This document shows, in pieces, positions 1-25,600 of a stretch of DNA of 39,144 nt. The notes beneath the pieces are model-generated. The model had not been told where the DNA came from. It did not search any database and worked only from the letters and a program-made list of their open reading frames with translations. The position numbers and the translations under genes are program-made. This stretch comes from a virus: the IMG/VR virus record IMGVR_UViG_3300033153_011062, positions 1 through 39,144 of that record. The stretch is one strand, 5' to 3'. The stretch's first letter is position 1, and every line of letters begins with the position of its first letter.

Positions 1-122
1 CGGTGCATATCCTGCATGTAGTGACTGAAGTCATCCATGTCGCCTAACCCCAGTCTTATCAGGGTCGCTATTAACCCGTGTACCGCGTGGTTATCGCTCA
101 TACGTATTTCGTCATCACTCAT
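1..122 (-). CDS. Mini-protein of the LGLA array, member A (3' end outside window)
   Basis: Read on the - strand from ATG at 122-120, the frame stays open to the left edge for 40 codons, so the gene is cut there. The visible protein carries the core seen in its neighbours: VHGLIATLIRLGLGDMDDF, a hydrophobic helix, then LGLG, then an acidic turn. An AGGG ribosome site (132-135) lies nine bases before the ATG. The start overlaps the end of the upstream gene by eight bases (ATGAGTGA), an arrangement repeated at 912-919. Function unknown. The repeated core and the ribosome site make it credible despite its size. Confidence 0.6.
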   Translation of the reverse strand, partial: MSDDEIRMSDNHAVHGLIATLIRLGLGDMDDFSHYMQDMH

Positions 123-333
123 TGCGCTTTTCCCTGTATATTCTATATAGTTCCAGATATAACTCCAACGGCGCACCCTTATTAGCTAACCCTAACTTCA
201 TGAGCGTTACCGCTACTCGGTAGGCGACTAACCTACCGAGATCTTTATCACGTACTGGCTTATCTTCGCTTTGCCGCTGTCCGCAAGTCCCGCCACGATC
301 CGAACCTGAAGTATTTTCCAACGTCTTTGTCAT
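115..333 (-). CDS. Mini-protein of the LGLA array, member B
   Basis: A 72-aa frame whose second half holds the array core (LVAYRVAVTLMKLGLANKG, about residues 34-53), followed by a Leu/Tyr/Arg-rich helix. The first 30 residues are Gly/Ser/Arg-rich and overlap the end of member C by 74 bases in another frame. No ATG, GTG or TTG lies in frame between codon 5 (TTG at 321) and the core, so an overlap of about 60-74 bases cannot be avoided if both genes are real. A GGGG-type site precedes the ATG. The N-terminus is uncertain; the core-bearing part is more secure. Function unknown. Confidence 0.6.
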   Translation of the reverse strand: MTKTLENTSGSDRGGTCGQRQSEDKPVRDKDLGRLVAYRVAVTLMKLGLANKGAPLELYLELYRIYREKRNE

Positions 334-433
334 CTGCTAACCCCACTATCCACAACGCACACGCGAAGTATTCATAGTACCTCATATCAACCACTGTATT
401 CAAGTGATTACTATCCATCGGTATTCTTGCCAT
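260..433 (-). CDS. Mini-protein of the LGLA array, member C
   Basis: A 57-aa frame starting at ATG 433-431 with GGAG (443-446) nine bases upstream, and a good promoter-like pair just before it (463-491). The core is YEYFACALWIVGLADDKDV (about residues 21-39), clearly related to members D, E and F. The C-terminal tail is basic (Trp-Arg-Asp-Leu-Arg...Lys-Arg-Arg) and overlaps the start of member B. Probably the first gene of a short transcription unit covering C, B and A. Function unknown. Confidence 0.6.
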   Translation of the reverse strand: MARIPMDSNHLNTVVDMRYYEYFACALWIVGLADDKDVGKYFRFGSWRDLRTAAKRR

Positions 434-462
434 TTTTCTTCACTCCACATCTCTACGTCGCT

Positions 463-491
463 GTTATAACGTCACTATGATTTTCACTCAA
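463..491 (-). promoter_or_regulatory. Sigma-70-like promoter for members C-B-A
   Basis: Reading on the - strand there is TTGAGT (491-486), a 17-base spacer, and TATAAC (468-463). Match to the -35 consensus is 4/6 and to the -10 consensus 5/6, at optimal spacing. The predicted transcript would start near 455 and give a leader of about 20 bases containing the GGAG site of member C. It falls in the only clear gap of the array (434-499). Confidence 0.5.
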
Positions 492-499
492 TGTTCTAG

Positions 500-637
500 T
501 CATTTTCGTTCGACCTCGCTTGTATATAACGTAGTTGAGTTTACGTCGTCCCCCGACGATAGGCCCAATCTATACAAGCACCAGATGAACGCATCCGTTG
601 TTTTCCAATCTTTTATCGTGTTGAGAATTTGCGACAT
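500..637 (-). CDS. Mini-protein of the LGLA array, member D
   Basis: A 45-aa frame starting at ATG 637-635. GGAG (646-649) lies eight bases upstream, and this site sits inside the end of member E. The core is TTDAFIWCLYRLGLSSGDDV (residues 13-32). The TTDAF lead-in is shared with member G, so D and G may form a subgroup. The tail is short and polar and ends in Glu-Arg-Lys. Too short for default gene callers. The ribosome site and shared core support it. Function unknown. Confidence 0.6.
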   Translation of the reverse strand: MSQILNTIKDWKTTDAFIWCLYRLGLSSGDDVNSTTLYTSEVERK

Positions 638-765
638 GGTCTCTTCTCCATTGCGGTTGCTTTAATTATAGTGATAAGGTTCACGACGTCTTCGTCAGTA
701 GCCAAGCCAAGGATATGAAGAGCCACAACGAATTTATTACATATTCCCGTTTCGCGGGCACTCAT
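613..765 (-). CDS. Mini-protein of the LGLA array, member E
   Basis: A 50-aa frame starting at ATG 765-763, four bases after the stop of member F. There is no good ribosome site of its own, so it is probably translated by coupling to F. The core is CNKFVVALHILGLATDEDV (residues 9-27). NKFV is shared with F and, as NKVV, with H. The tail is basic (Lys-Arg-Pro-Cys-Arg-Lys) and overlaps member D by 25 bases, including the ribosome site of D. Function unknown. Confidence 0.6.
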   Translation of the reverse strand: MSARETGICNKFVVALHILGLATDEDVVNLITIIKATAMEKRPCRKFSTR

Positions 766-769
766 GTTT

Positions 770-919
770 TTATAAGATATAGTCATCTATAGCCATGCTA
801 AAATTAACATAAAGTTGGAGGCGTACTTCTTCATCTGCTAATCCCAACTTAATTAGTACATATACGAATTTATTAATATGTGATCGTGCAGTCGGCGACA
901 ATGATGTATACTTACTCAT
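770..919 (-). CDS. Mini-protein of the LGLA array, member F
   Basis: A 49-aa frame starting at ATG 919-917. GAGG (927-930) lies seven bases upstream. The core is INKFVYVLIKLGLADEEV (residues 15-32), the cleanest example of the family pattern, followed by a second amphipathic segment and an acidic end. Its start overlaps the stop of member G by eight bases (ATGAGTAA), matching the B/A junction. Function unknown. Confidence 0.65.
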   Translation of the reverse strand: MSKYTSLSPTARSHINKFVYVLIKLGLADEEVRLQLYVNFSMAIDDYIL

Positions 920-1058
920 CTTTAAACCTCAATAAACAATCCGTAAGATCTTTCCAGAATTTATAATTGTCTTCTTCTTTAATAAAAAGGCTTAATCGCT
1001 CCAGTGTTCTTATAAAGTTGCATATATAAAACGCATCGGTTGTATCTATGTTAGTCAA
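912..1058 (-). CDS. Mini-protein of the LGLA array, member G (TTG start)
   Basis: A 48-aa frame with no ATG. The upstream limit is a TAG, and the best start is TTG (1058-1056), with AGAGG (1067-1071) eight bases upstream. The TTG overlaps the TGA of member H as TTGA, a typical stop/start coupling. The protein begins with Thr-Asn-Ile-Asp, then TTDAFYICNFIRTLERLSLF. The lead-in matches member D, but the LGL motif is degenerate (Leu-Ser-Leu). The rest is charged and aromatic. It is probably a diverged member. Function unknown. Confidence 0.5.
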   Translation of the reverse strand: MTNIDTTDAFYICNFIRTLERLSLFIKEEDNYKFWKDLTDCLLRFKDE

Positions 1059-1228
1059 AGATTTAGCCTCTCTATACGTCGCTTCATAAATCTAGTAAAT
1101 AGGGCTTTCGGATTCTCACTACAAATAGAGGCTAGATCATCTTGATCTACTAGATCTAACGCCCCCAGGGCTTGTAAGAACTTTACGACTTTATTAGAAA
1201 ACTTAGTGATGGTATTTTGTTTTTTCAT
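1055..1228 (-). CDS. Mini-protein of the LGLA array, member H
   Basis: A 57-aa frame starting at ATG 1228-1226. The core is SNKVVKFLQALGALDLVDQDDL (residues 11-32), related to E and F but with three extra residues inside the LGL segment. The C-terminal third is basic (Arg-Phe-Met-Lys-Arg-Arg-Ile-Glu-Arg). There is no ribosome site, but a TATAAT box ends only six bases before the ATG, so the message could be leaderless. Function unknown. Confidence 0.55.
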   Translation of the reverse strand: MKKQNTITKFSNKVVKFLQALGALDLVDQDDLASICSENPKALFTRFMKRRIERLNL

Positions 1229-1234
1229 AGATAT

Positions 1235-1240
1235 ATTATA
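1235..1240 (-). promoter_or_regulatory. Candidate -10 box before member H
   Basis: TATAAT on the - strand (plus-strand ATTATA), six bases before the ATG of member H. No convincing -35 is visible at 16-18 bases. If active, transcription would begin at or next to the start codon. It could drive H, G, F, E and D as one unit. Confidence 0.35.
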
Positions 1241-1251
1241 CTGAGGATAGA

Positions 1252-1356
1252 TTATGCTAAGTCTAATAGACGGAGGGTATTTATGAATTTTATCATTATT
1301 AATTCACGCTTCATTAGCGCTAGTTCTTTGGCCATTTTAGCATTAGATATGTTCAC
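1252..1356 (-). CDS. Possible truncated member of the LGLA array, member I
   Basis: A 34-aa frame limited upstream by TAA. The likely start is GTG (1356-1354) or an internal ATG eight codons in; neither has a good ribosome site. It ends in MIKFINTLRLLDLA, which matches the core of E and F up to the LGLA position and then stops. It may be a short member or the decayed remnant of one. A + strand frame over the same bases (1283-1414) has a strong GGAGG site before its ATG and cannot be ruled out. Low confidence. Confidence 0.3.
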   Translation of the reverse strand: MNISNAKMAKELALMKRELIMIKFINTLRLLDLA

Positions 1357-1452: not shown

Positions 1453-1659
1453 TCAAAGGTCATCTAATAAAATAGTATTCGCTATCTTATCTAGAGCCAA
1501 GTTCAATCGTTCGGGCGGAGATGGTCTGTACTTCTTTGTTTTTAGGAATTCAGGGAGACAGTCGTGCTTAAAGGGACATTGGATACATAATCCTGCTGAG
1601 AGGCAGTCTCCCTCGAGATCTATGATCTTTTCTAAAATTTGTATCTCTTTATCATCCAT
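1453..1659 (-). CDS. Small Cys4 protein, probable metal-binding mini-protein
   Basis: A 68-aa protein starting at ATG 1659-1657. It has a Glu/Ile-rich helix, then four cysteines spaced C-x5-C-x2-C-x5-C (residues 19-34), a basic Pro-containing segment, and a C-terminal Leu-rich helix. Four closely spaced Cys in such a small protein suggest a bound zinc ion, though no family is recognised with certainty. It lacks the LGLA core and so is separate from its neighbours. It is divergent from the tail operon. There is no clear ribosome site; the leader is A/T-rich. The stretch to its 3' side (1357-1452) holds no gene I can support. Confidence 0.6.
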   Translation of the reverse strand: MDDKEIQILEKIIDLEGDCLSAGLCIQCPFKHDCLPEFLKTKKYRPSPPERLNLALDKIANTILLDDL

Positions 1660-1708: not shown

Positions 1709-2578
1709 ATGGGTTCTAATAGTAATGATGACAGCTGTAAGTACGATGGAAACACACCTACGGGTTCCGGTTTCAATGGTGGAGGTACAGCTGGAAGTGG
1801 CGATGGCTTGACATACCCCACATCTCCAAAATCATATCCTAGCAATATGCCGGTATTCATACCGGACCCTAGTCTCAAAGGTCAATCCTTTGACCAACTG
1901 ATTCAGAATAGGGGAGTTAGGTTCATACACAAGATGTCAGCTCCTTGTCCTAATATGCGTGCACTTCATGATAATAGTCATAATCCAAATTGCCCTATCT
2001 GCGACGGTAATGGGATGATGTATTACAAAGAGCAAGAGATTTACGGCATATTCTATAGTAACTCTTTAGAGAAGAACTTTGAGCAGCAAGGGATCTGGGA
2101 AGTAGGTACAGCAGTAGTTACACTCCCAACGAAGTACCCAGATGGCACACAAGCCGAATTCAATACATTCGACCAATTAATTATTCCTGATTTTACAGTT
2201 AGACTTTGGGAATTAAAAGAATACGAACCTAGACCAAATGGTCAGCAAATGAGATACCCCATCAAAACTATAGATTACATAGCTTCTGTAGTAAGCAACG
2301 TCCTTGTACCGTACGTAGATGGCGTTGACTATAATATAGTAGATGGGAAGATATTCTGGATTGCAGGTAGAGAACCTAGTTACGATAACATTAATGATAG
2401 GGGTGACGTTTTTGTAGTTGTCTACTTTGCTCACCCTGTGTACAATATACTACAACACATGCGCGAATTAAGGATTACACAAGAACTACAAGGTGGAAGT
2501 AAAGTCCCAGTACGTCTTCCACAGCAAGTGCTTGTTAAAAGAGACTTTTTATTTAATAGTCCAGAGCAAGAAGCATAA
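1709..2578 (+). CDS. Neck/head-completion-like structural protein with CxxCxGxG motif
   Basis: A 289-aa protein and the first gene of the rightward structural operon. The first 45 residues are Gly/Ser/Asn/Pro-rich and look disordered. A cysteine cluster follows (Cys80, Cys95, Cys98; the last two as CPICDGNG), resembling a zinc ribbon of the DnaJ CxxCxGxG type. The remaining 180 residues look like a beta-rich virion domain. I do not recognise the family with certainty. Its place ahead of the tail-completion genes suggests a neck or connector role. The start is secure: AAGGAG (1696-1701) lies seven bases before ATG. Confidence 0.7.
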   Translation: MGSNSNDDSCKYDGNTPTGSGFNGGGTAGSGDGLTYPTSPKSYPSNMPVFIPDPSLKGQSFDQLIQNRGVRFIHKMSAPCPNMRALHDNSHNPNCPICDGNGMMYYKEQEIYGIFYSNSLEKNFEQQGIWEVGTAVVTLPTKYPDGTQAEFNTFDQLIIPDFTVRLWELKEYEPRPNGQQMRYPIKTIDYIASVVSNVLVPYVDGVDYNIVDGKIFWIAGREPSYDNINDRGDVFVVVYFAHPVYNILQHMRELRITQELQGGSKVPVRLPQQVLVKRDFLFNSPEQEA

Positions 2579-2630
2579 CCAGTTCTTGAGTTATAATATA
2601 GATGTAATCCGTAAGATCTTGGAGAAATTA

Positions 2631-4193
2631 ATGCCAAAAGCGGTAAGTAAGAAACAATATAGATACATGATGGCGATAGTACACGGCAAGGACAAAGGTA
2701 AAACCTCTGCCCGTGGCGATAGAGTACCTGCATCTGTAGCTGGAAAATACGCCTCTGGTGGTTCCGACTCATCAGCCCCTGAAAGCAAAGGTAAAGAGCA
2801 TGAAGGTGGGAAATGGGGAGAAAAAGGTCACGCAAAAGCTAAAACGAAAACAAACAAAGATAAACTAGAACGCAAGAAGAAAAAAGCACACTTAAGAAAA
2901 GCTTTAGAGAAATACATCATCGAACAAAAGCGCCAAGGTGCTGGGTGTTTAGTTATTAACTCAGATGGTCACATACTTTTAGGTAAGAGATCCGATAACG
3001 GAATGTGGGCTACTCCAGGTGGACACGTAGATCCAGGTGAGAATTTTGAGGAAGCAGCAAGACGAGAGCTCAGAGAAGAAGCCGGGATTGTTGCTAAAGA
3101 CTGTGTTGAATTGAATTCAGGTATGTATCGAGGTTACGATACGAAGCAATTCATGGTTACTAGTTATAGAGGCAAGTTAAAGGGTAACGGAGAGATGTTA
3201 GGTCTCCAATTCTTTGATCCTTATAATATACCTTGGAGCGAACTGACTGACTATACTCGTGATGCATTATGTGTTGCTATTAAAGAGAAGTTAAGTAAAT
3301 CCAAGAAGTTAAAAGATATGGTGGCTTACGAAGAGTTAGAAAAGAACATCATTAGGTCAGGTAGTGCACCGCACAACACGGTTTATGAGGTTACGCATGG
3401 CGATGCGCTTCGTCTTATTGGCAACGGGACATTTAGAATGTTGCGTGATGCAGTAAAAGATATGGGAGACGAAGATTTCCGCGAACTCAAAGTAGACGAC
3501 TATACTCTACACATCAGAAGGCATGTAAGTGATGTCTACTCTGGGAGAATCACTGATGGCTTGAAACAAGTCCATCAATTCACTAACAAGTCACTCCCTG
3601 CTGTCTCAGCAGAACTAATGAGTGTATTTGAATGGTATCTCCCAGAAGATGAGAAAGAATTAGAGATTGTAGACGAAGCTGATTTAGATGGTGGTGTAAT
3701 TGAAGGTGGTTTAGGTGAACTGATCGATAATTACAAAAGACACAACATTGTCAATATCTACACTGAGATGGAGAACATCAGAGAAGAACTGCGACATGGC
3801 ATGACTGTTGATATACAACAAGTCGAACAGAGAATGATGAAGTTATTCGATAGATTAGAAAGTACCCTTCTTACTGTAGTAGATAAGCATAATGTGCTCA
3901 ATAGCGACGCAGGGGAATCAGTAGATGTCCTTGAGAGTAAACTAATGCAGCTTCAAGAGAGAATTGAGCAGATGAGTAAGCAACCAGTCACTGTTAGTGC
4001 TTATTCTAGTTCACCATCTGATGACCAAAAAGTCCACTCAGAATTTTATCCATATCTCACCCGTCCTAGCGTTTCTATTTCCCCAGACGGACATATTAAA
4101 ATATCATTTGATTCTGACTGGACACACATGGAAAGAGATAACTTTCTCCAAGATATGAAAGCACGTGCTGTTAAAAAGCAAACGGCTAAGTAA
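2631..4193 (+). CDS. Nudix hydrolase domain protein with long C-terminal helical extension
   Basis: I place the start at ATG 2631, six bases after GGAG (2621-2624). An in-frame ATG at 2493 would overlap the previous gene by 86 bases. This gives 520 aa. Residues 1-105 are basic, beginning MPKAVSKKQYRYMMAI. Residues 131-153 hold a complete Nudix box (Gly, five residues, Glu, seven residues, Arg-Glu, then Arg-Glu-Glu-x-Gly-Ile), so the Mg-binding glutamates are present. Nudix enzymes cleave nucleoside diphosphates linked to another group. The last 280 residues are unrecognised and include a likely coiled coil near 380-440. Substrate unknown. Its place inside a tail operon is odd. Confidence 0.8.
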   Translation: MPKAVSKKQYRYMMAIVHGKDKGKTSARGDRVPASVAGKYASGGSDSSAPESKGKEHEGGKWGEKGHAKAKTKTNKDKLERKKKKAHLRKALEKYIIEQKRQGAGCLVINSDGHILLGKRSDNGMWATPGGHVDPGENFEEAARRELREEAGIVAKDCVELNSGMYRGYDTKQFMVTSYRGKLKGNGEMLGLQFFDPYNIPWSELTDYTRDALCVAIKEKLSKSKKLKDMVAYEELEKNIIRSGSAPHNTVYEVTHGDALRLIGNGTFRMLRDAVKDMGDEDFRELKVDDYTLHIRRHVSDVYSGRITDGLKQVHQFTNKSLPAVSAELMSVFEWYLPEDEKELEIVDEADLDGGVIEGGLGELIDNYKRHNIVNIYTEMENIREELRHGMTVDIQQVEQRMMKLFDRLESTLLTVVDKHNVLNSDAGESVDVLESKLMQLQERIEQMSKQPVTVSAYSSSPSDDQKVHSEFYPYLTRPSVSISPDGHIKISFDSDWTHMERDNFLQDMKARAVKKQTAK

Positions 4194-4930
4194 TGATAAA
4201 TCCAGATGCTGAAATAAATGGACTAAGATCATACCTTAGTCAACGCAACTGGCTGCAAAGTGAAGTCGAGGACATACTAGGTCTAGCGCTAAATGATATT
4301 AATGAAATCATACTTGACATAGTATCTACAGCTGTAGCAGACGCTACAGATTATGCTATTGAGCTAGGTGCAGAAGAATTCATAGAAGATATGGATATTA
4401 TTGAAGTAGGTGGAGCTTTTATGATCTCCACTGTGTCTGGTAAAACAGACTATTCCATACCAGAACGCAAGATGCTTCACGATCTTCTTAAGAATGCAAA
4501 GATATCTGAAGATGGTCATAGATATAAAGTAATACCAATAGGCAGCACAGAAACTAAGCGTCAACCTCGCGATATTTTTAGCGTAATGAGGCAGAGAGAT
4601 TCGGTGATACAAGAAGCAAGAAGTGCATTAAATAGTCAAGCTTTAGAGAGCAGATCTGCTAGAGCTCAAACCATGGCTAGTCGTTTCAGAAGTATTATCA
4701 ATAGTAAATTGACTGCACAAGTTAGTCCAGGGACAATAGAAGCTAAAGCTAAAGTTAAACCTGAATTTAGAACAGTTTCTGATAAGCAAGACGAGAATAC
4801 TCAGTGGGTACTACCGGCAAAAGAGATGGATTTAACTGGGTATTTAATGGATGCGAATAAAGGAATTCAAGAGAGTATTCGCTCTTCTGTTTTATTTATA
4901 ATAGAGAGTTATGAGAGGGAGTTTGAGTAA
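4193..4930 (+). CDS. Putative neck / tail-completion structural protein
   Basis: A 245-aa protein starting in a TAATG overlap with the Nudix gene, so it is probably coupled to it. The N-terminal 70 residues are acidic and helical. The middle is mixed, with an Arg/Ser/Ala-rich helix near 140-170, and a helical C-terminus ends in Glu-Phe-Glu. No catalytic motif is visible and I do not recognise the family by sequence. It lies between the first structural gene and a tail-terminator-like gene and overlaps both neighbours, which points to a neck or head-tail joining part. Confidence 0.6.
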   Translation: MINPDAEINGLRSYLSQRNWLQSEVEDILGLALNDINEIILDIVSTAVADATDYAIELGAEEFIEDMDIIEVGGAFMISTVSGKTDYSIPERKMLHDLLKNAKISEDGHRYKVIPIGSTETKRQPRDIFSVMRQRDSVIQEARSALNSQALESRSARAQTMASRFRSIINSKLTAQVSPGTIEAKAKVKPEFRTVSDKQDENTQWVLPAKEMDLTGYLMDANKGIQESIRSSVLFIIESYEREFE

Positions 4931-5963: not shown

Positions 5964-8168
5964 ATGGCAATTAATGTAAGTTTTAATGGCGCAACGATTT
6001 TTAAACCTGGCGCTTATTCAAAAACAGATATCGACTTAGGCGGCGCGTTCCCAATTGGACCTGCTGGACTTATTGCAGTAATTGGCGAAGCTGATGCTGG
6101 AAAACCCGGCGCTCAAGAAGTCAACATTGCAGCTAACAGATTCGGTGGAGATCAACTGATCACTATCCGTAACAAATATAGAAGCGGACCAATTGTTGAT
6201 TCAGCTTCATTCTTGTTTGCACCTGCTGCGGACGCAGCAATTCCAGGTGGAGCACAAACTGTCTGGTTTTATAAGACAAATGCTTCAACTCAAGCTTCTT
6301 TAGCTTTAGCTAATTCCTTCGGAACAGTTAAGTCTGGTGAGTGGGGAATCGGAGGAAACAGATTAACATATAAATCAGTCCTTATTGGTGAAACAGCAGC
6401 AACAGTTGCTGGTGCAGCATTTGATGAAGCTACTGCTGGTACTGCTACTGAAACCTGGGATCTTTATGAGAACGGTGTCAAGAACACCTTTACTGTTCCT
6501 GCTGGTGGACTTGTAGATAATGCAACTACTATAACAATCATGGCAGACGATGCTAACTGGTCTGGTACTGCACCTGCTGAAGCTGTTATTACTGTTGGCG
6601 GCGTAGATAATGCTACAACTATCAGTATTACAATGGTTGCTGATTTAGCTGCAAACCAAAATGGTTGGGGACGTAGTTTTGAAACAGTCGAAGGAGCTGG
6701 TACTGCTCTTGCAGATATGGGATTAACTGAAGCCATGTCAACTGCTTCTGTCGAGCCTAGCGCAACTATCGTATTAAATCAAAAACGTGATCTTAATGTT
6801 GAAGAAGATACATTAGGTTCAGCGATCGTTCTAGAAATTGGACGTGATACATCTGGCGTAGGGATAAATACAGCTGAAGTCGAAATAACAGCTACAGAAA
6901 TCCTTTTAAAAGAAAATGGAATAACTGCACATACTTTCTTGAAAGATTCTTATGCAATCCTTCAAGATATAGTTGATGAAATCAGCCTCACTGTTTACGC
7001 AGGATGGTCTGTTGCCTTATCTGATCCGCTGTACGCCCAGTTGTCACCTTCTGTCTTAGACGAAGTTAGCACCGGCGCGATGTCTGGCGGTGGAAATAGT
7101 CCTGCTAGGATCAAGAAGGATGCTTATGATGTTGCTGTATTTTTCGCACTGTCTTCATTAGCAACTATCGAAGATCAATCTAAAGTTGGTTTACCAGATG
7201 CTAGAGCTGAAGAGCCTCTTGCAGGTGGTGTACGTGGTGCAACTAATATGACTGACGTCTTAGCTGCTTTAGACAAGTTTCAAAAATTCCATGTGAATTC
7301 AATCTTACCTCTCTTTTCAAGAGACAGTAGTGATGATATTGCAGATGGACTAACTGATTCAGGATCAAGTTACACTATCGCTGGTATTCATCAAGCAATA
7401 AAAACGCATATCTCCCTCATGAAGACAACTAAAAAACGCTCTGAGCGTCAAGGTTATCTTTCAATGAAGGCAAGTTATGCAGACTGTAAAGCTCAATCAG
7501 CTATCTTATCAGATGGAAGAATGCAGCTTACAATTCAAGATATCAGACAGACTGATTCACAGGGAACAATCAAGTGGTTCCAGCCTTGGGCATTAGCTTG
7601 CTTAGTTGCTGGATCTCGAGCCGGTGCACCGATTGGTGAGCCATTAACGTTCAAGTTCCTTAATAACTCTGGTATCCGACAAACTGGACAACCAATGTCT
7701 ACAGCTGAAGAAAATATCACTATCGACTTTGATCCGGATTTGCAAACAGACGATGCAATCCAAGCCGGTCTTACTTTCATGGAAGCAGCACAAACTGGTG
7801 GCTTCAGAATAGTAGTAGATAATACTACTTATGGACGAGATGGTAACTGGGTGTGGAATCGTGGAAACGTCATCTATGCAGCAGATATAGTTGCTTTCAA
7901 CTTTAGATCTAGTCTTGAGAGTAGATTCATTGGACGTAAGAACACTGTCACTGCTACAGACGTTGTAGCGTATGCCTCTAGTATCTTAAATACTTTCTTA
8001 GCACAAGGTATTACAGTTTCAACTGGTGATGCTCCTCAAGGATTTAAGCAGCTTACTGCTAGAATCGAAGGAAGTACAATCAAAGTTAGTTGTGTAATTA
8101 AACTTGTCGAAGGTATCGACTTTGTGTTAGCTGATATTACAGTTCAAAGGGCAACCTCTGAAGCATAA
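5964..8168 (+). CDS. Contractile tail sheath protein
   Basis: A 734-aa protein with the features of myovirus sheath subunits. The N-terminal arm opens with Phe-Lys-Pro-Gly-Ala-Tyr-Ser and is followed by a Gly-rich segment. The conserved C-terminal domain (about residues 470-734) includes RNT-like strands, Trp-Val-Trp-Asn-Arg-Gly and the closing Val-Lys-Leu-Val-Glu-Gly-Ile-Asp-Phe-Val. The sheath surrounds the tube and contracts on infection. Residues 140-240 form a Thr/Ala-rich beta segment with internal similarity (VDNATTITI and VDNATTISI), probably a surface insertion. ATG 5964 is supported by AGGAGG nine bases upstream. The gene has its own promoter-like box and a strong terminator behind it. 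Confidence 0.93.
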   Translation: MAINVSFNGATIFKPGAYSKTDIDLGGAFPIGPAGLIAVIGEADAGKPGAQEVNIAANRFGGDQLITIRNKYRSGPIVDSASFLFAPAADAAIPGGAQTVWFYKTNASTQASLALANSFGTVKSGEWGIGGNRLTYKSVLIGETAATVAGAAFDEATAGTATETWDLYENGVKNTFTVPAGGLVDNATTITIMADDANWSGTAPAEAVITVGGVDNATTISITMVADLAANQNGWGRSFETVEGAGTALADMGLTEAMSTASVEPSATIVLNQKRDLNVEEDTLGSAIVLEIGRDTSGVGINTAEVEITATEILLKENGITAHTFLKDSYAILQDIVDEISLTVYAGWSVALSDPLYAQLSPSVLDEVSTGAMSGGGNSPARIKKDAYDVAVFFALSSLATIEDQSKVGLPDARAEEPLAGGVRGATNMTDVLAALDKFQKFHVNSILPLFSRDSSDDIADGLTDSGSSYTIAGIHQAIKTHISLMKTTKKRSERQGYLSMKASYADCKAQSAILSDGRMQLTIQDIRQTDSQGTIKWFQPWALACLVAGSRAGAPIGEPLTFKFLNNSGIRQTGQPMSTAEENITIDFDPDLQTDDAIQAGLTFMEAAQTGGFRIVVDNTTYGRDGNWVWNRGNVIYAADIVAFNFRSSLESRFIGRKNTVTATDVVAYASSILNTFLAQGITVSTGDAPQGFKQLTARIEGSTIKVSCVIKLVEGIDFVLADITVQRATSEA

Positions 8169-8310: not shown

Positions 8311-8865
8311 ATGGCAAAACTAGGTAATGCTTTTATAACTGGAGCTAACGCAAAGATTGTAATCGACAATGTGACAATGGCATACTGTTCAGACGTCAGT
8401 TATAATATCAATGTTCAGACGATTCCAGTGGAAACAATGGGCAAGTATGAAGTTCATGCAAACGAACCTGTAGCATATTCTGTTAATGGTGGTTTTAGTA
8501 TTGTCCGTTACACAAACAATGCAGCTGCAATTGTTGATGCTGCTAACGTTGAAACAACTCCTCAAAACATGAGTGCTGCGGGAAATGGTGCCAAGAGTAC
8601 TACACTCGGAGAGCATCTCGATCCAAGAAAAATTCTTGCATCTGGTACTTTCGATGTTGAGATTCATGAAAAAAGAGACGCTGATGGTGGTACCTATGCA
8701 GTCTTTTTAGTACAAGATTGTCGTTTAACTAGTCGAGGCATGACACTAAATAAACGCGGTGTTATGGTTGATAACTATGCATTCGTTGGTATCTTAGCTG
8801 GCGATAAAGATGGCGAAGCTAGCGATGATGTAAGTAATAGCTCAATGGGCGATGACTTAACATAA
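8311..8865 (+). CDS. Tail tube protein, copy 1
   Basis: A 184-aa protein of the size usual for myovirus tube subunits. The N-terminal block (GANAKIVIDNVTMAY, then SYNINVQTIPVETMGKYEV) and a beta strand with Ser-Val-Asn-Gly are shared with the next two genes. The middle has a short Ala/Asn-rich loop, and the C-terminus is acidic. Tube subunits form the hexameric rings through which DNA passes. Of the three tandem paralogues this is the simplest, so it is my best guess for the major tube protein. Confidence 0.8.
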   Translation: MAKLGNAFITGANAKIVIDNVTMAYCSDVSYNINVQTIPVETMGKYEVHANEPVAYSVNGGFSIVRYTNNAAAIVDAANVETTPQNMSAAGNGAKSTTLGEHLDPRKILASGTFDVEIHEKRDADGGTYAVFLVQDCRLTSRGMTLNKRGVMVDNYAFVGILAGDKDGEASDDVSNSSMGDDLT

Positions 8866-8907
8866 TCTAATACTTAATTAGGAATATTATTAATATAAGG
8901 TAAAAAT

Positions 8908-9600
8908 ATGGCAAACATAAAACCATTTTTTCTTACTGGCGCTAACGCTAAAATCATATTAAATAATAAGTCCGTGGCATTCGCCACGGACATTTCTTAT
9001 TCTATTACTGTCCGTCATGCTACTCCCAGAGTACTTGGTAGATTTGAAGTAGAAACAGTGCAACCGTTATCGTATGACGTAGAAGGCACACTAACTATTA
9101 TTAAATATGCTAGAGGCATGAAAGATCATATGAGTACTCATGAATCTAGTGCACCTGTGAATGTCGATCAACTTGGTAATGGCTTGGGTAGTTTCGCCGC
9201 GGGACAAGGAGCACTAACTAGTGCATTAGGCCTACCTTCTGGTGGACAATTTGATGGTGGTACAGCAGACAATTTCAATCCTTCTAGGATGTTTCAATCT
9301 AAAATGTTTGATATAGAGATAAGACAAAAGATCCCACCAAAAACAAGTAACCTACCTCAAGTCCTTCAAGGTTTAAAGGCAGTAGGTGCTGCTCTCAATG
9401 ATGGTTTAGTGCCAGATGGTCTTAACGATACAAACGACACTAATATCTTAATTAGACTTAGAGATTGTCGTTTTTCCCGTCTAGATTTTAAACTTAGTAA
9501 AAGAGGCCTTCCACTTGTAACTATGCAGTTTAAAGCTCGCTATGTGGACGATGATACATCTATTGCTGGAAAATCTGGCGTTGGACAGGAGTTTAGTTAA
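8908..9600 (+). CDS. Tail tube-like protein, copy 2
   Basis: A 230-aa paralogue of the preceding gene. It shares GANAKIILNNKSVAFATDIS, the strand after it, and the Asp-Cys-Arg strand near the C-terminus (RLRDCRFSRLDFKLSKRG, compared with VQDCRLTSRGMTLNKRG). It carries about 45 extra residues in the middle, rich in Gly, Asn and Asp. It may be a minor tube ring or tube-initiator protein. A perfect hairpin lies within its first 30 codons. The ribosome site is weak (TAAGG), so it may be made at a lower level than copy 1. Confidence 0.72.
   Translation: MANIKPFFLTGANAKIILNNKSVAFATDISYSITVRHATPRVLGRFEVETVQPLSYDVEGTLTIIKYARGMKDHMSTHESSAPVNVDQLGNGLGSFAAGQGALTSALGLPSGGQFDGGTADNFNPSRMFQSKMFDIEIRQKIPPKTSNLPQVLQGLKAVGAALNDGLVPDGLNDTNDTNILIRLRDCRFSRLDFKLSKRGLPLVTMQFKARYVDDDTSIAGKSGVGQEFS
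8970..8991 (+). other. Perfect intragenic hairpin early in tube copy 2
   Basis: GTCCGTGGC (8970-8978) pairs perfectly with GCCACGGAC (8983-8991) across a four-base loop ATTC. It is G/C-rich in an A/T-rich genome and starts 62 bases after the ATG. It is not followed by a T run, so it is not a standard terminator. It could slow ribosomes or protect the message. Confidence 0.6.
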
Positions 9601-10214
9601 TGGCTGTTATAGATAATGCAATTACTGAAGCAGGAACCTTAACTGGTGCTATTGGAAATGCGGCAGATAGCTTATTAAATAGTGCAGTTGGAGCTGTATC
9701 ACCTTTTAATAATTTTGGTAGATACCTAACTGGCTCTAGAGCTGTCATTAAGATAAATGATAACCTATTTGGATTTGCCTTCGGGGTTACTTTTAACATA
9801 CAAACCACGGCAATAGAAATCAATACGATTGATGACTGGACACCGTATGAATTAGCTCCAGCACGTATCTCAGTTAATGGAACACTAAGTATGTTCCATA
9901 TACCTGGAAAAAGTCCTACAAAAGAATTAATACAAGCAAATGTATTATCATTCTTATTCCACAAATATGTCACTATATCCATAAGTGACCAGACTACCGG
10001 TCAAAGAATCTTTGAAACTCGGAAAGCCATTATAACTAATAGAAAGCAAACTATCCAAGCAGGTGAGCTTTCTACTATAGAGTTAGAGTGGAAAGCTGTT
10101 GGTTTTATCGATGATATTGCACCATTCTATCCTAAAGATAAAGATGGTGAGGAGAGCGGCACGTCACTAGACGGGTTAGGTGCAGGAGCATTAGCAGCGT
10201 TTAATGCTATATAA
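9600..10214 (+). CDS. Tail tube-like protein, copy 3 (possible tube initiator)
   Basis: A 204-aa protein starting in a TAATG overlap with copy 2. About 40 residues of Ala/Gly-rich helix precede the tube-like core (GSRAVIKINDNLFGFAFGVTF, cut here after Phe). That core lines up with the start of copies 1 and 2, and a matching Ser-Val-Asn-Gly strand follows. It diverges more than the other two and lacks the Asp-Cys-Arg strand. In T4 the tube and its initiators share one fold; by analogy this copy may cap or start the tube. That role is inference. Confidence 0.65.
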   Translation: MAVIDNAITEAGTLTGAIGNAADSLLNSAVGAVSPFNNFGRYLTGSRAVIKINDNLFGFAFGVTFNIQTTAIEINTIDDWTPYELAPARISVNGTLSMFHIPGKSPTKELIQANVLSFLFHKYVTISISDQTTGQRIFETRKAIITNRKQTIQAGELSTIELEWKAVGFIDDIAPFYPKDKDGEESGTSLDGLGAGALAAFNAI

Positions 10215-19601: not shown

Positions 19602-22600
19602 ATGGCAGTAGAAATAAAGAGTTACAATCAGATCCTAGGCAGCATGATTCGTAAGATCATTGCTGATACACCACTAAATGACATAAATACCGGCTCTACG
19701 CTCATGACGCTCCTTGAGGCAGCTGCTCAAGTTGACTTTGAGAATAATGCTTCTATACTTAACGTATTAGAACTGTTGAGTGTAGACGCTATAAAAAACA
19801 ATGACTTAGACGCTAGAGCTGCTGATTTTGGATTATCTAGGGTTCCAGCTAGAAGAGCTACTGGTTTTATTGATATTGGCGACTCCAGTATCGAGAAGAG
19901 AAGTACTGGTCTCTATCAAGTAAAACCAGCACCTATTGCTGGCTCAACACAACTTTTTGTGAACAATGCTACAGATTGGACTCAAACCGGTGAGATATTC
20001 ATCGGCAGAGGGACAACTAACTTTGAAGGACCAATTAGCTATACATCTATTGCTGATAATGGTTCATTTTTTACAATAAACCTCGCATCATCTCTGCAGA
20101 AAGATCATCTTGTATCTGAGACAGTAATTGATGCACAAGGGACATCTAATCGTCTGATTTCTGCTGGAACACTAGTCCAGATTCCTGCTAACAATATTAA
20201 CCCAGTTACAGAGTATAGAATCATCCGCGATGCTGTTATAGCTTCTGGTGAAGACCTTGTACAGGGAGTAGAAGTCGCTGCTATAGTCGCGGGCACTAAT
20301 AGTAATGCAGGAATAAATACTATTGTACAATTTAGTTCTGTACCATTTCCTGGTGTAACAGCAACTAACACTACCGCATTTACAAATGGTACGAATGTTG
20401 AAACTGATGATGATTTAAGAGAAAGAGTCAAGTCTTATTCTAATACATTAGCTCGAGGTACAGAGGCAGCAATTCTCGCTTCTGTAATTGGAGTATCTGA
20501 TCCAGATGATGGCAAGCAAGTTGCATCAGCTATTATAACTGAGCCACCAAAAATAGGCGACCCATCAATACTATACATTGACGATGGTGGCGGATTTGAA
20601 CCATCTTTTATCGGACAGTCAGTTGATGTATTATTAAACTCAGCAAATGGTAGCGAAGAGTTCCTACAATTAGCTAATTTTCCACTACCTAGACCACAAG
20701 CTATTAATGCAATCAATGGGCCTTTTGAATTAACTGATCAAATGGAGTTACGAGTAGTAGTTGATGGGATAGAAGAGAATATTATTTTCACTTCTGACCA
20801 GTTCTCTAATATTGCTGCCTCTACTAACGCAGAAATCATTATCGCAATCAATAGTCAATCAGTTGGCTTCAAGGCTACTTTTACAGAAAACTCATCTAGA
20901 ATGTTATTGTTCCCATTGGATCACACAGTGGAAACAATTCAGGTATCTGCTATTAAGTCAACTGATGATTCTAGCTTATTCGCCAATAACATTCTGAAGT
21001 TCCCTACCAATGAATTTTCCTATATTCGTCTTTATCAAAACAGTACTTTATTGACAGAGAAAGAAAGATCGGCAACACTATTAACTAATCCTTTTGCTAC
21101 ATGGAATATAACAGATGAAGGCAGTTTAGTCATATCTGTAGATAACACACCAGCACAAGATAGAGCATTCTCCGAACCTGATTTCGGTGGTACTCCTTTT
21201 ATAGCACTAACAATTGATGACTGGGTAGCAGTAATTAATCAAAAATATGCGGGAATAACAGCAACTGCTACATCCAGCGGTCGAGTGCAGATCGTATCTA
21301 ATAAAGAGGGGTCAGATTCTTCTTTAGAAATACTAGGTGGTTCATACTTTAATAAGCTCTTCTCTAATCAAGAAACACTATCTGGTGGTACAAATTCTGA
21401 CTTTGAACTGAACAGACAAAATGGAAACATAAGGATACTTAGAGACATTGAAATCGGTGACTCTATCACTACTGGTATTGAAGATGCAAAAGGTGCTATC
21501 TACTCATCTGAAACACCGTCTGGTTCATACGATTTATCTATCGACTCAAGTGGTCGAACTTCTCAAATGGTAATGCTTGCTGATTCTGATAAAGTATCTA
21601 TCCGTGTCAATTCCGGTCTAGCTGTAGGTAATATTGTCACCCTCACAGACGAGGGAAGCAATGTAATGAGGTTGACTTCTGATTCTGCTACATCGTTCTC
21701 AGCAATGATGCCAGAAGATTATATCTATATAGCATATAGAGGCGTAACTAGTCCTTGGATTGATGAAGCTAATACCGGCTTATTCAAGATTATTGCCAAA
21801 GGCGAACATATAAATGTAGGCACTGACACCTATGTAGAAGTCAAGAACATATCTATTGTTCCTGGTGTACACACTGTTGAAGCCGGCGAAGATATACAAG
21901 CTTTTAGAGCAGGTACATATCCACAACTATGGAAGAGCTCTTTTGTTCCAGTTCCTGCTTCAGTACAGATTCAAGACCTGGTTAATTCTTTCAATGATAA
22001 CCTCGTTAATATAAAGAATTCTGTCTTTAAAACAAACAGCATGAAACTAACATCAACTACTGAAGATGATGGTTCAATATCTACACCTATCGGTTCTGGA
22101 AATATCTTATCTCTTTTTGAATTATTAGAGAATCAAGAAGGAACACTCGGCTTCATAGCTACTAGAACACCTGAAAAAGATTTTCCATCTTTCTTTAAAT
22201 ATACACAGCCTACCTCTGAGGACGCAGAAGGCGTAACTGGTAAAGATGTCTGGTTGGATAGAGTCCAATATACAGATATTAAGGGAGCTTTCACAAGCGA
22301 CGCGGCACCTGGTGAAGTAGGTGTTGACACGTACAGTGAAGAACTAGAATCCACTGGGATTCTTACATCTGCTATTCTAAACTATACAGATGTAGTGAAT
22401 TTTTTAGACGGTGCAAATAAAGGACATTATCGTAACATTAGAGACTATCTAACTGGTGATAAAATAGGTACGCAGCATGCATTACCTAGAACGATAATGA
22501 ATACTATAGCAAATGATAGATTTAATCTGATGCACCCTGCAGCTATATCCCCTGAAGATAGTATTGTTTTTATCTTAGATCAAGACTCTATTGCTAAAAC

Positions 22601-25600
22601 AATAGACATAAGAATGTCTAGAACAGGCCAGATTAATAGTGATTTTCCTCCAACAACTTTTTCATTCTCAGCTAATGATGCAGACAATGAACCAGGTATT
22701 ACTTTTGGTAATCTACAAGTCTGGGGTAAACTAGCTAACAATACAGAATTCGAAGATTATGCAGTATGGTTTAAAGCAAGAAACTGGTATGTCGACGGCG
22801 GTGCTGGTAACGGCGGTGGAGCTTTCATAGTTAGATCTGAAGAATTCGGTCCACATGGTGAAGCTATAAGGTTTCAAATAGAACACCCAACACTTCCAGA
22901 TACTGGGAATACTATTACACATGGTAATAATCCAGATTTCACTTTGGCAACATACAAATTTGGATCTGGCGCTAAGAGGCCTATAGGTTTAGTAGATGGA
23001 GATAGCTTTACTGTTTCCAATCCAGGTAGCAATGTATATCGTTACACTTTTAATAATTCTCCAGCATTTGCTTCAGTATCACCTAATGATGTTATAAGTA
23101 TATTAAATAATTCTGGGGTCTCTACTAGCAATCAAGGACAGTTTAGTGTTATTGCCGTAGATGATTCATTAAAAACAATAGATGTATATAATCCTAATGG
23201 AGCAGTAACTCCAGCTGGAAACCCCGAAGTTACCACTATAGACACTATCGATGATATTGTTGGTTCTCCAACTGTTAGTGTCGTTTCTAATATTGCAGCA
23301 GCAACTGGATTAGATGGTGAATTCTTTACTATAAATGATGCTGCTGGTGCAGTAGCTATATACTATAATGTAGGTACTCCAAATCCTGGACCAGGTGTAC
23401 TTGGTGTAAGCCGTGTAATAGAAGTGGTATTAGGTGGAGCAGAAGTAGCAGGTACAGTAGCACTATTAACGTCTGGTGTAATTACTGCAGATAGCGAGTT
23501 TTCTGGTTTAGCTGCAGGTAGTGCTGTTACAATCACTAATGTAGACAATGGTACATTGGCTGTTTCTGCAGATGGTTCAACACCTACTGGATTCACGTTC
23601 TCTGGCACAATCGGAGTAGCAGATACTACTATAGATGGTACATACTTTACTCTACAAGATCAAGATGGAAGCGTTGCTTTCTGGTACGATCTTTCCGGTA
23701 CAACTCCGGAGCCACTACATGGTGCAGATAGAGCAATTGAAATAATGACTGTAAATTTTGGCGACACTGCTAGCACTATTGCAACTAAATCTGCAGTATT
23801 AATAGTTGCAGATCCAAAGTTCGCTTCTGCACTAGTAGTCAGTAATCAAATCACTGTGACTGACACCAATAACGGTGCACGAATAGCATCTTCTGCAGGT
23901 ACAACTGGATTCACTATTGCTGAAAGTATTGCTGGTATTGACGATGTTATAGAAGTAATGAGCGCAGTCGAGTTAATAAGTATTTTCCCATTAACAGGCA
24001 CAAGTGTCGCAGATATAGTTTCAAAGATATCTGAAAGTCCAATTTTAATAGCGGCTGAGGTTGATGGAACAAACGATATCCTAAAAGCAACAAGAGAAAA
24101 CGTATATACTCCAGCTGGTCCTGGAGACTTTAGTGCTTCACTAGCATATAACCATAATCCTGTCTCTGGATCAGGAGAAAATACTTGGATTAGACTATAT
24201 GATAGTATGGGGTGGGTTAAGATTTTTGAAAATACAAATCCACAGTTTGCATTAAAAAATGAATTAGTATTACAAGGTGCGGCACCGAGTGCTTATGCTA
24301 TGGATACAGCCCCTAATAACGATGGTAGTACTGGAGAATACTTCAAACTAGTACCAACTACATTAACTAATACTCTACATCACTTTACACAAAAAGCGCT
24401 ATCACAGTTACCTATTGTTGCAGATGTTGAAATAGCTGAAAATATCAGAAAGATTCAAGTCAAGTCTAAACTATTAGGCTCTCAAGGAGCAATAGAGGTT
24501 GTTGGCGGTAATGCTAATAATATTGATTTTAGTATCTTTGGTGAAGCACAAATTGCACCAGGAACTGAATCTGGTTCAGACTTCTTACAGGTTAAGACAA
24601 GAGCTTTTCCAGTAACCCTAACCAAGGGGACATTAGTCAGAGTTGAGAATACTCAACCGGCAAAAAGACTATCAAGATTATCAGATAGTGATACAATAGA
24701 CATTGTTAAAGGAACAGGGAATAATACAGAGTATCTCTGGAATCCTAAAGATACTAAATTGAGTAGTTTAGTTAAATTCTCAATAACAGACATATCTTCC
24801 TTATATGGTAGAGCAGCAGATACAGTTTGGAGATGGCAACACAATGATAGTGGATCATTCTTCAATATCCTAGATCTAACGTTAGGTACTACAACTGCTC
24901 CACCTGATGATGAAAACGCAGATGGTACAGGTGATGCAGCAAATTTAGTAATTGATCTAATAGAAGCTGGAACTGTAACTGAAGCACAAAACTTTAGACT
25001 AACTGTTACTGAGACACCAGTGCAGGCTGATTATTTTACTTTTAGAAGTGCTAATCCCACTCTTGCTACTTTTGCTGTATGGTTTAATGTTACCGATGGC
25101 GGAGGAGCTGGAGATGTTCCTACAGGCACTACATATGATACAGCAATTAACCAAATCCAAGTAGATATACTAAGTACTGACTCTGAAGATAGTATTGTTT
25201 CTAAGATGGCTGCTGTCTTAAACGTCAATGTGCCATTCTTAAGTGAATTCGAAGGAATACAAGAAGAGGGTGCTAATCTAGACGATATAGTTCCTGGTGA
25301 CCTACTTAATGCTTATGGCACTTTTACTTCAGATTGGAATTCAGGTAATAAAGTTCATGCATCTGGTGATGGCGACATTGGTGGCTTTCCGATAATAGCA
25401 GCGGATTCAATTAGCAGATGGATTGACGTAGTCAACCCAGATGGCGTTGCAATGGCAATTGAAAAAGCAATCGGCAGTGGTACAGTAGAGATTACACCAA
25501 CACCTGTTATCAAATGGAATTTAAAGCATGCAGCTAAGACAGCTGTCGTTCAAGCTGTAAAACTTGGAACCACAATAACAGTAACAACTGTTGATCAGCA

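Follow-up and report, generated by a model that had tools for sequence, protein, structure and literature searches.

The Gol peptide, which activates the defence protease Lit, is part of the intact major capsid protein of phage T4 and not the product of a separate gene. As with Gol/Lit, host defence by CapRel (PMC9712102) or Thoeris (PMC11312562) depends on sensing the capsid, either as a stretch or as the protein. The tail tube is sensed by DSR2, and the small phage protein DSAD1 blocks this sensor by competing for the tube site (PMC11087589). Virion assembly is the point of action of Tab, the prophage tail assembly blocker (PMC10884400); this is a single prophage gene with its own inhibitor that targets the tape measure protein, and no virion pieces are known from it. 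Early host-takeover clusters of the SPO1 type consist of many small adjacent phage genes. The known clusters of this kind contain mostly unrelated genes.

The locus examined here also consists of small adjacent genes, but these form one paralogous family, and in related phages some of its members are chimaeras with virion proteins. DSAD1-type inhibitors likewise set a small phage protein against a virion protein (the tail tube) at the sensor, but DSAD1 is a single gene without shared core or array. We found no description of such arrays, or of array-decoys, in the open-access literature. We state with high confidence that the family and its arrays exist, that the arrays bear signs of translation, and that the relatives contain both purifying selection on family members and fusions of the core with virion proteins.

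The window, that is, the whole 39,144-base stretch analysed, is a complete environmental virus record with a virion module from a contractile-tailed phage. This module comprises a neck protein (phrog_1004), a sheath (phrog_279), three tube-like proteins (phrog_3776), baseplate proteins (phrog_6, phrog_975 and phrog_1160) and a Nudix-domain protein. Among cultured phages, the nearest one found was Myxococcus phage Mx1, whose sheath is 31% identical. The features next to the array and in the module that matter here are the following.

1453-1659, minus strand: small Cys-rich gene (EGDC..CxxCPF..C), on the array strand and adjoining the array; without PHROG match
1709-2578, plus strand: virion (neck/head) structural protein, phrog_1004; anchor for locating the arrays of relatives
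5964-8168, plus strand: tail sheath, phrog_279; residues 1-19 of its homologues recur in array genes of other phages
8311-10214, plus strand: three tail-tube-like paralogues, phrog_3776; the N-terminal hairpin of the family recurs in array genes of other phages
19602-27116, plus strand: baseplate wedge-like protein, phrog_6; family residues 8-59 recur in L067 4912-5214
30311-35059, plus strand: large fam43 protein downstream of the baseplate genes; no PHROG match

The Nudix domain lies in a large neighbour of the neck gene (2493-4193), and the same region of Mx1 holds a gene annotated as NUDIX hydrolase. The Cys-rich protein (EGDC...CxxCPF...C) matched no family. It is conserved throughout the clade, with one or two gene copies lying between the array and the neck gene, for example at these positions.

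L005 9425-9947: Cys-rich gene
L067 7368-7886, minus strand: Cys-rich gene

Nine minus-strand frames between positions 1 and 1356 of the window align on one core, F-h-x-x-L-x-x-L-G/S/D-L. Nine is a minimum count, since frame A runs off the contig, which ends inside the array; the array may extend past this end.

3-122, minus strand: array gene A (MSDDEIRMSDNHAVHGLIATLIRLGLGDMDDFSHYMQDMH...), off the contig edge; likely start ATG 122, overlapping the end of gene B
115-333, minus strand: array gene B (core VAVTLMKLGLANKG); start uncertain, as the sole canonical start falls within gene C
260-433, minus strand: array gene C (core FACALWIVGLADDKDV)
500-637, minus strand: array gene D (core FIWCLYRLGLSSGDDV)
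613-765, minus strand: array gene E (core FVVALHILGLATDEDV); likely start ATG 765
770-919, minus strand: array gene F (core FVYVLIKLGLADEEV); GAGG 5' of the ATG, start overlapping the end of gene G
912-1058, minus strand: array gene G (core FIRTLERLSLFIKEED); TTG start, four-base overlap with the stop of H (TTGA)
1055-1228, minus strand: array gene H (core FLQALGALDLVDQDDL)
1252-1335, minus strand: array gene I, the shortest (core FINTLRLLDLA is the protein end); likely start ATG 1335, GTG 1356 possible

With their likely starts, genes A, E and I are shorter than the longest frames. Starts and stops in this array interlock, with H and G sharing TTGA and with overlaps at G/F and B/A, as in translationally coupled operons. 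At 216-240, within the array, lies a nine-pair inverted repeat, CTCGGTAGG-CGACTAA-CCTACCGAG, which is terminator-like on the plus strand.

Because the core was first noticed in the window frames, we scored these with a profile built without window sequence. This position-specific profile used 18 seeds from other phages and was trained on other phages alone. Of the 240 window ORFs, it placed the nine frames at ranks 1-9 with scores of 24.1 to 8.6, ahead of the following ORF at 6.6, and comparison with their own shuffles gave p = 0.00025 to 0.013, which confirms the original prediction of tandem paralogous minus-strand genes with a shared core. Of the pattern originally described, the acidic turn ending in D/E-V/L is peculiar to the window phage. 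Several codon sets encode LGL in the window cores, so conservation is at the protein level. A DNA-level element was considered as an explanation and dropped; core codons vary freely and Rfam gave no match.

Relatives were collected from IMG/VR, along with two MAG contigs, by anchoring on the neck protein. Tandem rows of tiny core-bearing genes lie upstream of the neck gene, on either strand, in L003, L005, L011, L015, L019, L021, L023, L030, L042, L069, L070, L091 and others. The iterated profile, which was trained only on upstream matches, matched 307 of the 3,130 small ORFs on the upstream side of the neck gene and 6 of the 3,989 on the downstream side, the latter being about the number predicted from the 0.2% shuffle threshold; the fairest count is that of the first iteration, which preceded this training, with 129 matches upstream and 7 downstream. 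The array of L070 has 33 members; in L042 the eye counts about 24 and the profile 19. The arrays of relatives contain runs of 9-29 intact genes on a single strand. At a stringent cut-off, the six full phage sequences hold 6 to 30 core-bearing ORFs per genome, in a main array and scattered, and some of these genes sit far from the virion module.

Members are mostly 35-100 residues long, and many of them fall under the usual gene-size cut-offs, as had been anticipated. The family-wide core reads F/L-L-x-L-L-x-K-L-G-[VIL]-[IK]-S, and one lineage has the variant F-L-x-F-L-x-K-T-G-N-x-A-A. The predicted opposition of array and virion module is found in the window and in L005; in L003, L011, L023 and L042 the array runs with the module, and L030, L012 and L070 have both orientations. 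The nine window frames belong to a large family of mini-proteins that is encoded in tight operons across a clade of contractile-tailed phages. The possibility that the core was taken from a large phage protein was rejected, since 649 long ORFs of these loci gave noise-level matches alone; in the six genomes every core match above the shuffle maximum (17.1) is an ORF of at most 195 residues.

The A4 profile did not find the family in Mx1, the nearest cultured phage. Two phage contigs of the clade lie in Bacteroidota MAG bins, L091 (LNEN01000305.1, Cytophagales) and L090 (JALHRR010000086.1, Saprospiraceae), and among the sampled genomes of the MAG's phylum the family occurs only in that one MAG which contributed a phage contig of the clade. 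This binning is a possible, unproven hint at the host; Mx1 infects Myxococcus. Beyond the arrays, these phages encode a protein of 160-200 residues with the motif ...SNWxRKDxRxNG...KNPGSRAGxGD..., often in two copies per phage.

L003 5590-6111 and 7192-7671: SNWxRKDxRxNG protein
L005 3523-4029 and 4817-5428: SNWxRKDxRxNG protein
L006 4131-4616 and 5881-6372: SNWxRKDxRxNG protein
L067 3043-3723: SNWxRKDxRxNG protein

The exact four-base overlap is by far the commonest spacing in the arrays (39 of 238 adjacent gene pairs), and an ATG with a Shine-Dalgarno-like motif was found for 93 of 285 array ORFs as compared with 9.8% of control ORFs. In all listed orthologous pairs pN is smaller than pS; this is a family-level test on members from relatives, with the nine window genes outside it. 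The closest pairs, which are least biased by the picking of pairs on protein similarity, have omega values of 0.03 to 0.3. Since four-base overlaps, extra ribosome-binding motifs and pN below pS coincide, we take the array frames to be coding. By this sequence-level measure, the substitution ratios show purifying selection on family members in the relatives. The original prediction of repeated duplication under selection is borne out by the arrays of relatives and by these orthologues, and two of the checks that had been set in advance, conservation of the frames in related phages and the ratio of synonymous to non-synonymous change, came out in its favour. The members are short and highly divergent, as decaying duplicates without function would be, but selection, coupled overlaps and the long single-strand runs of intact genes make this explanation scarcely credible.

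AlphaFold2 predicts two helices for gene F (49 residues; alignment of 32 sequences) at residues 9-24 and 30-48, with a core pLDDT of about 93 and a pTM of 0.48. This model is consistent with a helical hairpin. The second helix is not universal, as gene I and many L070 members stop at the core. A Foldseek search of the PDB with the 49-residue model of gene F gave no match. SHOCT and MshEN-like hairpins, the latter from the N-terminus of type II secretion ATPases, are built as helix, G-h-I-S/T turn and helix, and resemble the core. SHOCT (PF09851) was not matched by 32 members at E ≤ 1, by 132 members at E ≤ 0.05, or by three queries close to the consensus at E ≤ 10. The MshEN / T2SSE N-terminal domain gave no Pfam match, and by inspection the c-di-GMP motif R-L-G-x-x-[LVI] is absent from the core consensus; a profile search of the PDB returned a weak match to XpsE (E = 0.011). 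Readings of the core as SHOCT, MshEN or a classical helix-turn-helix were rejected or unsupported.

PHROGs v4 contains no family common to the members; the tail-tube family phrog_3776 weakly matches two of them (best E = 0.017), as expected of chimaeras with tube pieces. PADLOC-DB gave isolated weak matches only, to one member each (best E = 0.0028). The core lies outside every Pfam, PHROGs, PADLOC and PDB family tried, and judging by these searches we regard both the family and its chimaeric architecture as new. The original prediction had recognised no described family, and neither Pfam nor PHROGs has one that covers the core.

About 20 of the roughly 300 members consist of the core and a short piece of a virion protein, all of them in phages other than that of the window. 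The pieces represent capsid residues 41-85, 121-165 and 202-267, the N-terminus of the tail tube, sheath residues 1-19 and baseplate wedge residues 8-59. They were first seen in a conserved group of members (L012, L015, L016, L030, L091 and others) that end in a capsid-internal stretch; this stretch recurs inside a capsid protein of about 488 residues from the same phages, whose family includes the annotated capsid gene of Mx1. To score such pieces, small ORFs were searched with profiles of 104 protein families. Each family was represented in three or more of the seven sequences used for this, namely the window and six full genomes. Reversed decoys reached at most 12.0 bits. Above this value, the only families that core-bearing ORFs matched were those of capsid, tube, sheath, baseplate wedge and fam43. 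In the nine window members, no virion piece rose above noise.

The clearest case is L067, where consecutive genes join the variant core F-L-x-F-L-x-K-T-G-N-x-A-A to varied virion pieces, in the order capsid 41-71, capsid 121-165, tube N-terminus, wedge 8-59, fam43 123-139 (a stretch of about 15 residues, in gene 4513-4701) and capsid 202-265. Against the best reversed decoy of 12.0 bits, L030 5960 scored 27-29 bits for capsid 47-82 and L005 7480 scored 22.5-23.4 bits for its tube piece. Sheath residues 1-19 begin members in L019 and L015 and, more weakly, in L006 and L005. The orthologous group with the capsid piece, from about ten phages, matched the capsid with an hhalign probability of 75.9 (runner-up of the 104 families: 11.8); for the other 16 of 17 orthologous groups, this group-level comparison gave no match to a large phage protein. 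In G003 (L131-L139), a gene with core and capsid piece (67078-67374) sits off the main array, some 3 kb upstream of the gene for the capsid protein. An AlphaFold2 model of a member with a capsid piece was of low confidence (pLDDT 69, pTM 0.32) and was left unused. In L070 (1541-4029, plus strand), a subfamily has an N-terminal DGxxxLxY pattern and the core as its C-terminus, ending KLGV-stop; the idea that these members are all tube mimics was dropped (hhalign probability 0.1).

The original prediction had proposed early host takeover or counter-defence as the role of the array. Small, divergent, operonic genes are typical of phage early regions, most members have no recognisable virion piece, and core-bearing genes are also scattered over the genomes. 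All this would suit a set of helical hairpins whose differing surfaces bind host proteins, the virion pieces being side products of fusion. Chance fusions, however, would not favour virion proteins, and all pieces above decoy level derive from virion or tail-module proteins, so that we consider host-takeover peptides rather improbable. With the virion pieces in the relatives, counter-defence decoys or interference with assembly become more specific possibilities.

For ten tube and sheath pieces, on average 48% of the proteins of other phages outscored the phage's own (n = 10), which is the chance level; the sample is small, the pieces are short, and arrays could have moved between phages. L070 2647 scored 36 against its own tube and 68-78 against the tubes of other phages, while the capsid piece of L030 5960 was about equally similar to its own capsid and to others (90 versus 93). 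That pieces do not track the proteins of their own phage weakens the simplest decoy model, and likewise recent capture from the phage's own genes. Since decoys would be expected to track self, this counts against the sensor-decoy reading, as do the small share of members with a recognisable piece and the absence of such pieces from the window members.

The same result suits interference with a rival phage or satellite, in which the pieces would act as dominant-negative subunits, built into the capsid, tube, sheath or baseplate that a co-infecting rival is assembling, and the shared helix would block the next subunit or recruit another factor. The source proteins self-assemble, the pieces include the termini of tube and sheath, and a block of virion assembly has a precedent in Tab (PMC10884400). 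Capsid pieces about equally like the phage's own capsid would nonetheless be expected to poison its own assembly unless timed or resisted, and the conservation of the capsid-piece group across about ten phages would be surprising in a weapon aimed at rivals that change; we regard interference as unlikely, though by no means far-fetched. Alternatively, the pieces could bind the growing structure of the phage itself as caps, timers or docking tags, with the helix as a joint or as virion cargo. Main arrays adjoin the virion module clade-wide and some members are strongly conserved, but the number, order and content of members vary widely among phages, unlike assembly genes, some core-bearing genes are likewise distant from the virion module, and the pieces do not follow the phage's own proteins. 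A role as regulators or parts of own assembly appears quite improbable.

Overall, we favour, tentatively and with somewhat less than even confidence, a shared scaffold whose variable baits would compete for the partners of virion proteins. The scaffold or adaptor would be the common module, in which a hydrophobic helix closes with L-G and, as a rule, leads on to a second helix. The variable part would be the bait, in some members a short piece of a virion protein, and would fill a site on the partner that is otherwise bound by the intact virion protein. Competition for a partner is proposed because some baits correspond to parts that are in use or exposed in the intact virion protein. Newly made virion proteins have two known kinds of partner, defence sensors such as CapRel, Thoeris and DSR2, and other subunits of the virion. 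We infer the scaffold role, the competitive binding, the sensor as partner and the same action by the window members, and by extension from the chimaeras we include members without a piece, the nine of the window among them. The most likely partner would be a host defence sensor of newly made virion proteins, and the array would then be a set of decoys against several sensors. We know of no sensor of sheath or baseplate. This sensor-decoy mechanism is possible but somewhat doubtful; we slightly favour decoys over interference with rival phages, which the self-tracking result keeps close.

At the protein level, the arrays may thus represent a repertoire in which virion pieces on a shared helical adaptor form a reshuffled library against virion-sensing immunity or rival phages, a reading that we find plausible without holding it to be probable. 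If true, phages would possess a modular library of mini-proteins, many of them below gene-calling cut-offs, that mimics several virion proteins at once. Such a library would add a new type of weapon to counter-defence or to competition between phages, and would provide ready bait sequences for seeking host sensors of capsid, tube, sheath and baseplate. Whatever the mechanism, hundreds of overlooked genes under selection that share one core in a clade of environmental phages call for an explanation.
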